Shown here: positions 32,061 to 35,086 of the stretch, one piece after another
How the letters are laid out: every line of letters starts with the position of its first letter
Numbering within the stretch: position 1 is the stretch's first letter
Source: Nitrospirota bacterium
Lineage (GTDB): Bacteria > Nitrospirota > Thermodesulfovibrionia > Thermodesulfovibrionales > JdFR-88
DNA length: 39,018 nt
NCBI GenBank assembly: GCA_021813405.1
Contig: JAKAKS010000039.1
Span: forward strand, 43,451 to 82,468
Direction: 5' to 3'
Translations under genes and position numbers: made by a program
The notes under the pieces: generated by a model
Told to the model about the DNA's origin: nothing
Database searches by the model: none
The model's input: only the letters and a program-made list of their open reading frames with translations

Positions 32061-32906
32061 ATGGATGATCAGCAAGTAAATCAGGGCTGCTGAAAGCCAA
32101 TCGGAGGTGCCGGTGGGCGCCTGGACCAACAGGGCATATGTCCCCTGCCCTTTTCCTCCAGCCAGGAGAAACCCGCGCCTGATGCCGGGGCAATCCGGCA
32201 GGCAATTCAAAAAAGATATGCGGCGGTGTCGGTAACCGCCTCCGGCAACTTCAGTTACAAAACAGGCAGGGCGGGCGCGGAACTGCTCGGCTATGATAAA
32301 GGCCTGCTTGGCCGCATGCCGGATGAATTGATAGATTCCTTCTGCGGGGTTGGGAACCCTTTTTCACTTGGCCCGGTCAATCCCGGTGACCAAGTTCTGG
32401 ATATAGGCTGCGGGGCGGGATTCGACCTTGTGGCGGCAAGCTGCCTGGCTGGCAAAAATGGAAAGGTATTCGGTATAGACGTCACGCCGGAGATGCTTGG
32501 GAAAGCGGGAAAGGTTTTGGCCGGATACTCGTGTTCCGCTTATGAATTAAAAGTTGCCGGGGCGGAGGAACTACCTTTTGAAGACGGCTCATTCGGCATC
32601 GTTATCTCAAACGGCGTTCTTAATCTTTCTCCGGCCAAAGCAAATTGCTTCAAGGAAATATACCGCGTGCTCAAGCCTGGCGGCCGCCTCCGGATTGCAG
32701 ACATTGTGCTGAAAGGTGAAAGGCCCGCAAGCGCAGACCCCCTTCGTGACTGGGCAACCTGAATAGGCGGCGCGGTCTCCGTGGCAGACCAGTTGGATTT
32801 GATAAAGGCGGCCGGCTTTAAGGATGTTGAATTCGCCGGAGATACGCCTGTATCCACTTCCAATTTCACCGTTGGCGCACTCTTTAAGGCAAGGAAGCCG
32901 TTGTAA
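32061..32906 (+). CDS. ArsM/AS3MT-like SAM methyltransferase, probable selenoprotein with two Sec (UGA) codons
   Basis: One frame runs from ATG 32061 to TAA 32904-32906 through UGA at 32091 and 32760, giving 281 residues with U11 and U234. Before the first UGA: M-D-D-Q-Q-V-N-Q-G-C. After it: I-R-Q-A-I-Q-K-R-Y-A-A-V-S, Y-K-T-G-R-A-G-A-E-L-L-G-Y and F-C-G-V-G-N-P-F (C95), all N-terminal features of ArsM-like methyltransferases. SAM motif I is D-I-G-C-G-A-G-F-D (114-122), followed by G-I-D-V-T-P-E-M-L and R-V-L-K-P-G-G-R-L. The second UGA replaces the conserved cysteine of the W-x-x-C-[IL]-G-G-A block (Cys156 in human AS3MT), and the downstream frame continues with family sequence (I-K-A-A-G-F-K-D-V). 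The third arsenic-binding cysteine of classical ArsM is not seen. Both UGAs have downstream hairpins. UGA serves as a stop in many neighbouring genes, so general reassignment is unlikely. Real substrate unknown. Confidence 0.8.
32091..32122 (+). promoter_or_regulatory. SECIS-like element at the first UGA
   Basis: UGA 32091-32093, then AGGTGCC (32105-32111), apical loop GGTG (32112-32115) and GGCGCCT (32116-32122): a 7-bp stem with one G-U pair. The loop starts 18 nt after the UGA and opens with GGU. As I recall, E. coli fdhF has the same spacing and a loop that starts GGU. Confidence 0.7.
32760..32790 (+). promoter_or_regulatory. SECIS-like element at the second UGA
   Basis: UGA 32760-32762, then GGTCT (32774-32778), loop CCGTGGC (32779-32785) and AGACC (32786-32790). 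If C32780 pairs with G32784 over a C-C mismatch, the apical loop is GUG beginning 18 nt after the UGA, matching the first element. The stem is weaker than the first. Confidence 0.55.
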
Positions 32907-32939: not shown

Positions 32940-35086
32940 ATGGACTTTTCTGAACTTGTCTATTTCGGCGCTCATCCGAAGATCGCCGGAACTCTTCCCG
33001 CTTCGGGCGGGACTTCTTTATATCCTCCGCAGGAAGAGGCGGTTAAGGCGGGGCTGTTTGAGCCCGGTACATCACTGGTTGTGGCCGCTCCCACCGCGTC
33101 CGGGAAAACCCTGATAGCCGAGATGGCCGCCCTGGACATCTTCCTGAAAAAAGGCGGCAAGGTTATATATCTGGTCCCGCTGCGGGCGCTTGCACGTGAA
33201 AAATATGAGGACTTCACCCGCAAATACGAACACACCGGCTTAAGGATAGCGCAGAGCACAGGGGATTTTGACCGAGACGAACCCTGGCTTGCCCAGGCCG
33301 GGCTGATAATCACAACCAACGAAAAGCTGGACTCCCTTCAAAGGCGGCGCTCCAGGCTGCTTGAAAACCTGGCGCTTGTGGTGGCCGACGAGGTGCATCT
33401 TCTTGGCGACGCCGGCAGGGGGCCGACGCTGGAGGTGGTGCTGACCAGGCTAAGGGCCGTTAAACGCGGGCTGAAAGTGATAGCCCTCAGCGCAACCATA
33501 CCCAACGCAACTGAAATTGCGCATTGGCTGGACGCCAGGCTGGTGCAGTCCACATGGAGGCCGGTGCCGCTTAAAGAAGGTGTTTTCCATAACGGGGCGG
33601 TAATCTTTAATGAGGGCAGTGTAACCTGGGTAGAGAAGAAGAGCGGCATAGATTCCGTTGACCTTTCCGTCGGGACCATCGGCGAGGGCGGACAGGCCCT
33701 TGTGTTCGTTGGCACAAGAAAATCCAGCGAGGCGCTTGCAAGGAAGGCGGGGCGTTACGTGGCAGGCTTTTTATCGGAGGCGGACACTGATTTTCTGGAG
33801 AAGCTGTCAAAAGACATACTGGCCAGCGCTTCGGAGCCCACAAAACTCACCAAACGCCTCTCTGAAAGCGTTAAGGAAGGCGCGGCCTTCCACCATGCGG
33901 GCATACCATACGCCCAAAGGAAGCTTGTGGAGGACGCCTTCAAATCAAACAGGCTGAAACTGCTTGCCGCAACCACCACGCTTGCCATGGGGCTTAACCT
34001 GCCATCGCGGCGCGTGGTTATAAGGGACTGGTGGCGTTATGTGCCGGGGGCGGGGATAAGCTCCATACCGGCCATCGAGGTAAAACAGATGGCGGGCAGG
34101 GCCGGCCGCCCCGGGTATGACAAATTCGGAGAGGCCGTGCTGGTGGCCAGAAGCAAGCGCGACGAAGGCCAGCTTTTCGATAAATACATACGCGGCGGCC
34201 CGGAGGAGATCGAATCCGCACTGGCCAGCGAGGCCGCCCTCAGGGGCCACGTGCTGGCCTCCATAGCCGGGCTCTTTACCCGGACCAGGCGGGACCTTAT
34301 GGATTTCCTTGGCGCAACATTCTTTGCTTTCCAGTCCGGCAGCAACAGGCTGGAGGGGGTAGCAGAAGACGTGCTGGAATTTTTGCACTCCGAAGGGCTG
34401 ATAAATTTTTCCGGCGGCGCCGGATATTCCGCAACAAGGCTTGGGCACAGGATATCCGAGCTTTACCTGGACCCCTTGTCCGGCGTTATCTTCAGGGACG
34501 CGCTATCTGTGCAGAAGGAAAACTGCCCTTCGCCCTGTTCCATATGCTTGCCATGGCCCCGGACATGATGACGCTGTCTTTCGGGAAGAAAGATTTCGAC
34601 GAGTTAATGGAAATCTTCAGCGCCCACGCTGAAACCCTGCTGGTTTCAAAGGACGGCCTGGCCGCAACAGACCAGATGCTATCGGAAATAAAGACCGCCT
34701 CTGTGCTGATGCAATGGATTCTGGAGACACCCGAGGAAAAGATAACAGACCACTTCGGCATAGGCCCAGGGGACCTGCGGACGATTGTGGAACTGGCGGA
34801 CTGGCTGTTGTACGCGGCGCAGGAGGTTGCCAAGGCAATCGGAATGAAGGATGAGGCCAGGGCCATTTCGCCGCTTAGGGTAAGGGTGAATTACGGAGTG
34901 AAAGAGGAACTGCTGGGCCTTGTAAGCCTTAAAGGTGTGGGCAGGATTAGGGCGAGGAGCCTTTACGAGGCAGGCGTTAAGGACGTAAGGGGAGTAAAGG
35001 ACACAAGCCTGGATGTCCTTCAGAAGGTCCCGAAGATAGGGCATGCGCTTGCGCTGGACCTGAAAAAACAGACTGCCGAAGGCTAG
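32940..35086 (+). CDS. Hel308-like superfamily 2 DNA helicase, interrupted by a frameshift
   Basis: Two frames make one protein of about 715 residues. The first (32940-34568) has Walker A P-T-A-S-G-K-T (51-57), V-A-D-E-V-H-L-L, S-A-T-I-P-N and motif VI Q-M-A-G-R-A-G-R-P-G-Y-D, then the winged-helix region to Y-L-D-P-L-S-G-V-I-F-R. After Q-K-E it leaves the family. The family sequence resumes one frame over as K-L-P-F-A-L-F-H-M-L-A-M-A-P-D-M-M and runs to 35086, with a late helix-hairpin-helix (L-V-S-L-K-G-V-G-R-I-R-A-R). One A missing from the run at 34519-34522 explains it. Either an assembly error or a real lesion. Hel308 acts on stalled forks and is chiefly archaeal, with scattered bacterial members. 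Confidence 0.85.

Follow-up and report, generated by a model that had tools for sequence, protein, structure and literature searches.

A 2026 review, PMC13188914, mentions 119 selenocysteine (Sec) families or subfamilies and includes three methyltransferase fusions (NF041536, NF041537 and NF047649). It credits the methyltransferase/UXPK-star family NF047649 to Haft and Tolstoy 2025 and lists three Sec residues for NF041537. Its table also has the methyltransferase MduS, with a C-x-x-U motif and 2 Sec residues, which we set against our gene by motif only. The same source gives a rule for the bacterial insertion element (bSECIS): a stem of 4–16 bp, a loop of 3–9 nt with a G in its first two bases, a spacing of 16–37 nt and a minimum free energy of −7.5 or lower. 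Among arsenic methyltransferases, the red-algal enzyme CmArsM binds arsenic through Cys72, Cys174 and Cys224 (PMC3877260), and ArsM proteins have been recognized by at least three of the four cysteines at CmArsM positions 44, 72, 174 and 224 (PMC5552862). A sequence-only reading of the DNA described here had called two Sec residues in one small methyltransferase rare; double selenoproteins of this clade are already catalogued (NF041536, NF041537 and NF047649). The members of these families that we tested carry their further Sec C-terminally, and we found no N-terminal Sec arm in the literature searched, Haft and Tolstoy 2025 lying outside that search.

The window (the whole stretch of DNA analysed, 39,018 nucleotides from a Nitrospirota bacterium) holds a methyltransferase gene with a probable N-terminal arrangement of this kind. 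Its features are as follows.

32061–32906, + strand: whole gene, ATG start, 281 aa, TAA stop at 32904–32906, with UGA codons at residues 11 and 234
32061–32180, + strand: N-terminal arm, approximately residues 1–40, predicted to be disordered, motif C-U-K-P-I-G-G-A-G-G (from relatives and pLDDT)
32091–32093, + strand: UGA, predicted Sec11 (the arm Sec), from its in-frame position
32105–32122, + strand: bSECIS-like hairpin, 7-bp stem AGGUGCC/GGCGCCU, loop GGUG (from covariation in relatives and a synonymous-codon control)
32226–32228, + strand: GTG start of the mechanical gene call (from the conventional call; compare the Shine–Dalgarno counts for internal starts)
32343–32345, + strand: Cys95 (F-C-G-V-G-N-P-F), invariant in the 43 arm proteins of set A5
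32613–32615, + strand: Gly185 (S-N-G-V), at the position of red-algal ArsM ligand Cys174 in a HMMER alignment, invariant in A5
32760–32762, + strand: UGA, predicted Sec234, motif U-I-G-G-A, at the ArsM Cys224 position, in a column invariant in A5

Translation with TGA read as Sec confirms that the frame reaches upstream to the ATG at 32061 and is interrupted there by the TGA at 32091 alone; the only other in-frame TGA of the gene is at 32760, and the protein ends in ...FKARKPL. Both UGAs recur in a same-genus copy (genome G001) that is 94% identical, and the gene at locus L048 has the same 94% identity and the same arm sequence as that copy. The gene has UGA within a conserved coding frame, as expected of a bacterial selenoprotein gene. 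Conventional calling returns 32226–32762 only, from a GTG that is probably not the real start, and drops the first 55 residues and everything beyond Sec234. The original proposal, that ordinary calling had overlooked two likely Sec codons and a SECIS-like hairpin in one small methyltransferase, is supported.

The core behind the arm is an ArsM-like S-adenosylmethionine (SAM) methyltransferase. It matches Pfam methyltransferase domains; its best NCBIfam models (NF041537, NF041536 and NF047649) are all selenoprotein-named and all align from residue 41; and its best PDB chains are ArsM both by sequence and by fold. The ArsM fold and the SAM-binding domain are thus present, and Sec234 aligns with CmArsM Cys224. 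Position 174 is Gly in 47 of 49 arm-bearing loci (scored by a simple pattern) and in all 43 rows of A5, a set from which L132 was left out, although it stays in the counts. At position 72 the window protein has Val, and the Cys that stands two residues earlier is invariant in A5. Only position 224 of the four ArsM cysteines is kept, as a predicted Sec, and the protein scores 170.3 bits against a cut-off of 263 bits for the arsenite methyltransferase model NF008823; because the usual arsenic ligands are mostly lost, arsenite is only a putative substrate. The combination of Phe-Cys-Gly and Ser-Asn-Gly is also usual in armless and C-terminal-Sec relatives, and therefore the clade as a whole seems, from these alignments, to have rebuilt the soft-ligand site. 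In one armless relative among the database proteins (P0021), Ser unusually takes the place of the catalytic Sec (AWSDSIGGA). Another ArsM-like group of the same order, distinct from this one (L027, L029–L031, L033, L034 and L037–L045), has its UGA in YSGUITG, and several of its members have paired cysteines close to the N-terminus.

To define the arm across relatives we took 130 loci (30 + 80 + 20) and dropped 16 copies, leaving 114 distinct loci that include the window's own; an identical-core pair, L124 and L125, was kept. Each upstream frame was extended back until the first TAA or TAG, so that the absence of these codons is built in. An arm with an upstream in-frame UGA is present in 49 of the 114 loci, the window counted: 44 by rule (in-frame UGA and start codon) and five with Sec-Pro-Ser/Thr added by hand (L052, L057, L066, L091 and L094). 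Loci with an upstream TGA and no motif were not counted (for example, L056, L074, L095, L096, L104, L118 and L124 to L126). The arm UGA is codon 14 in 34 of the 44 rule-defined arms and codon 11 in the window. One common form of the arm is S-U-P-P-S-G-G-[AT]-G-G-C and another is G-G-U-P-P-K; the form in the window is divergent. Pro stands at the second residue after Sec in 41 of 49 arms, a count that is partly built in among the 44 because the arm rule required Pro, Leu or Val there. The Cys-Sec pair that had been put forward is not supported as the conserved unit, with Cys directly before the arm Sec in only 7 of 44 arms; Sec-x-Pro is conserved instead. In 41 of the 44 arms there is a Cys somewhere between positions −10 and +14 relative to the arm Sec. 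The enzyme with its Sec arm may plausibly bind a soft metal or metalloid.

Most arm-bearing records are titled Nitrospirota or Desulfobulbaceae-type bacteria. We scored 29 relatives with the catalytic U-x-G-G motif as armless; five of these are uninformative, with the record or frame cut (L099, L100 and L106 start within the core, the contig of L056 ends 41 residues upstream and the frame of L123 is broken). The other 24 are informative, so that the arm is optional. Homologues without the upstream part, named at the outset as grounds for rejecting the arm, therefore exist, yet the arm-bearing loci cluster on the tree. On a quick core tree (106 rows, eight loci left out) the arm is one state change; the supporting branch reaches only 51%, which makes a single origin no more than possible. 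A stringent nucleotide pattern built on the most frequent arm form matched in 4 of 295 genomes of a phylum sample, by position all at methyltransferase genes already in our set; it says little about the arm as a module elsewhere because it also missed the arm of the window. Mean AlphaFold pLDDT is 34–38 over residues 1–30 and at least 85 in every ten-residue block from residue 41. Because confidence is low over residues 1–30, the model leaves the contacts of the arm unpredicted, and the arm is probably a flexible tether.

A profile search scored 7,998 candidates and gave 7,620 matches, of which 120 were listed and 20 of those, chosen for high score or coverage, were compared. The arm is present in 18 of these 20 proteins with Trp at both Sec positions, apparently as if gene callers had used a code in which TGA is Trp, to judge from the proteins alone. 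No Cys-for-Sec replacement was seen at the arm position among five candidates and the 20 database proteins from the 120 listed.

As had been proposed, a 7-bp hairpin with a GGUG loop follows the arm UGA. Its stem pairs 32105–32111 with 32116–32122, the loop (32112–32115) begins 18 nt after the UGA and the predicted energy is −12.3 kcal/mol, which places it within the bSECIS rule of PMC13188914. The window hairpin is modestly better than synonymous recodings (p about 0.03) but does not outdo dinucleotide shuffles (z between −0.5 and −1.5 for three stretches). Neither the window ATG nor that of L048 has a Shine–Dalgarno match before it. Taken alone, the window is a weak case, and the weight lies with the relatives. 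A second hairpin had been proposed at 32760–32800, by the catalytic UGA. In the window it fails the strict rule and does not exceed chance expectation (z +0.3 and +0.8), yet among the arm loci 38 of 49 attain −7.5 kcal/mol at this site. Rfam gave no match within the window at its gathering threshold.

Compensatory changes among relatives, the absence of which would have spoken against the hairpin, were found in two sets: A1 (25 sequences, loop about 18 nt after the UGA) and A2 (19 sequences, loop about 21 nt). The sets were divided after the hairpins had been inspected; L112 was not placed in A2 because it is shifted by one codon, and neither set includes L129, L130, L132 or L134. The shuffles used for comparison ignore relatedness, so that their counts are not probabilities. 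In A1, 8 cells are changed on both sides compared with 3.6 in shuffles (9 of 500 as high), and the covariation score is 0.263 compared with 0.185 (1 of 500). A1 does not stand out by both-side counts, because structures slid along the alignment reach as many or more (up to 9 cells and 6 pairs); it does so by the share of cells paired (76% versus at most 52% when slid) and by score (at most 0.154 when slid). A2 has 23 both-side cells compared with 10.9 in shuffles (0 of 500 as high) and at most 7 in slid versions; its pairs with both-side change (5 versus 4.2, 187 of 500 as high) and pair types (11 versus 11.2, 369 of 500 as high) are not above shuffles. A synonymous-codon control, in which the protein was kept and synonymous codons were resampled, gave p < 0.05 at 21 of 49 arm UGAs and 35 of 49 catalytic UGAs, compared with 9 of 196 mock codons. 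By the strict rule 21 of 49 arms reach −7.5 kcal/mol and 28 do not; with bulges allowed, a count that has no matched control, 35 reach it and 14 do not.

The genomic surroundings do not indicate a pathway among the 76 neighbours scanned (of 95 on the same strand and 152 in all); the commonest domains were VTT, in five, and PEPCK, in four. In some arm loci (L057, L059, L062, L072 and L085) the gene immediately downstream resembles one for a membrane protein. The cluster of such downstream genes comprises eight loci, in three of which the gene begins at the arm gene stop codon; any link of these genes to the five VTT matches is by position only. Downstream of the window gene, a DEAD-box helicase gene (32940–35086) falls into two overlapping frames of 542 and 180 aa; the copy at L048 (6880–9024) is one 715-aa frame, and the split is either a frameshift or an assembly error.

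The arm UGA is very likely read as selenocysteine, to judge from the comparison of sequences, and three other explanations of it can be weighed. A chance upstream frame with a TGA and a chance hairpin would suit the unremarkable hairpin of the window, but the same kind of arm, UGA and hairpin occurs in 49 loci from records named for several phyla, and the mock sites gave their excess in so few cases that we regard coincidence as extremely improbable; a chance hairpin is ruled out on the relatives, not on the window alone. Genome-wide recoding of UGA to Trp or Gly, with both codons ordinary sense codons, would fit the Trp readings in 18 of the 20 relatives compared. It is ruled out, with a probability that we put close to nil, by the 11 of 27 long frames in the window that end in TGA (one being the methyltransferase frame itself) and by the Sec machinery of the genome, which encodes SelA (480 bits), a full-length SelB (356 bits) and tRNA-Sec (69.6 bits). 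SelB exceeds its cut-off in 16 of 20 arm-bearing genomes tested. Of the four below it, one has a partial match starting at a contig edge (231 bits, model positions 1–197), another has a separate C-terminal piece (positions 400–580) and the remaining two have only matches that resemble other translation GTPases. The third explanation is that the UGA at 32091 is the true stop of a short leader peptide and that the methyltransferase begins at GTG 32226 or another internal start. Conventional calling does start downstream, several U-x-G-G relatives begin near residues 41–45 and the arm ATG in the window is without a Shine–Dalgarno match. Across the arm loci, however, a match of at least four bases precedes 27 of 44 arm starts, whereas the figure is 8 of 56 for internal candidates and 7.9% for random positions. 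From the UGA to approximately residue 55 there is no ATG in 40 of 49 arm loci, although GTG and TTG are absent too in only 16 of 49. Over the arm, dN is lower than dS in 14 and higher in 2 of 16 overlapping pairs, which were hand-chosen and share members; for the window pair, dS is 0.11 and dN is 0.04. Together with the covariation of the hairpin and its synonymous-codon excess, these counts make a leader peptide with reinitiation unlikely, and we give it only a few chances in a hundred.

The reading that we favour, with a probability of about 0.55, is that both UGAs are read as Sec, with Sec234 in the predicted active site and Sec11 on a flexible arm that swings in to cooperate with it. SelB would use the hairpin at 32105–32122 to insert Sec at codon 11. 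Sec234 and Cys95 would replace the usual three-cysteine site in binding a soft element such as arsenic, selenium or tellurium, with Sec11 as a third, mobile ligand and as the redox partner of Sec234. After methyl transfer, Sec11 might form a diselenide or a selenenylsulfide, and a reductant would then open the bond. A different use of the same residue, which we consider possible but rather unlikely, is that the arm UGA encodes Sec on a separate selenol tether, for delivery of selenium or a metal(loid) or for docking of a reductase, that takes no part in catalysis within the same molecule. The predicted disorder of the arm would suit such a tether, as would the 223 residues that separate the arm Sec from Sec234 in the sequence and the lack of the arm in the 24 informative relatives, of 29, that keep the catalytic Sec. 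Against it, the neighbouring clade adds a further Sec to the other end of the same enzyme, which suggests a shared intramolecular role, and no common partner gene was found among the 76 neighbours scanned.

Compared with ArsM/AS3MT (CmArsM, 4fr0 and 6cx6), the window protein shares the fold, the SAM domain and the position of Sec234 at Cys224; it differs in having Gly for Cys174, Val for Cys72 with the Cys two residues earlier, and nothing at Cys44, and in its additional N-terminal Sec arm. It resembles the single-Sec arsenite methyltransferase NF008823 in the Sec of U-x-x-G, as at residue 234, whereas that family has one Sec only, there (PMC13188914, Table 1). NF047649 and the window protein both have two Sec residues per chain, the second in a short tail, and a methyltransferase domain with Sec in U-x-G-G (245 bits over residues 41–279 of the window protein), but the tail is N-terminal in the window and C-terminal in L117, L120 and L127. 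These three pass the NF047649 cut-off of 460 bits at 505–511 bits, and their C-terminal ends read GGAUEPK, GGTUKRK or GGTUKPK. The window protein reaches 244.7 bits and has no second Sec in a C-terminal U-x-P-K-like tail; none of the 295 genomes of the phylum sample has an NF047649 match over the cut-off.

With NF041537 (ArsM/AhpD) and NF041536 (ArsM/DUF2284), the window protein shares the methyltransferase domain (266.1 and 249.7 bits) and a catalytic Sec accompanied by a further one. Unlike them, it has no fused C-terminal domain, its match stops at profile position 249 and it stays below their cut-offs of 510 and 575 bits. In the NF041537 members L113 and L122 (558 and 626 bits), a UGA lies within the C-terminal domain. 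An AhpD-like extension was recognized by eye in seven loci, two of which share an identical core; a C-E/D-P-U motif occurs in five of the seven. Three of the seven were scanned: L113 and L122 exceed the NF041537 cut-off, and L115 lies just below it (500 versus 510 bits). In L113, L115, L118, L122 and L126 there is a UGA at the catalytic site, one in C-E/D-P-U and another near the C-terminus (GGTUPR in L115), and each of these proteins may possibly contain three Sec residues, matching the number that PMC13188914 gives for NF041537. None of the ten C-terminal-Sec and AhpD-like loci scored with an arm, a mutual exclusion that is not independent evidence because it follows the tree.

By analogy between these groups, we infer that the second Sec may play one role from either end of the enzyme, acting both as a third ligand and as the catalytic Sec's redox partner. 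More tentatively, the same kind of Sec-x-Pro selenopeptide on a mobile arm, N-terminal in one clade and C-terminal in its neighbour (as UXPK-star and the AhpD fusion), may close over a catalytic Sec set among remodelled thiolate neighbours, so that a pair of selenols rather than three cysteines would capture and redox-cycle a soft element that is perhaps not arsenic. All 43 A5 rows match NF047649, NF041537 and NF041536, and in the six arm proteins inspected these alignments begin at residues 34–50, past the arm, with 245–299 bits compared with cut-offs of 460–575. The N-terminal arrangement would join a small set of multi-Sec proteins, and the curated models tested align only to the enzyme behind the arm. 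A second Sec at either end of related enzymes would make its role (ligand, resolving residue or docking handle) a testable case.
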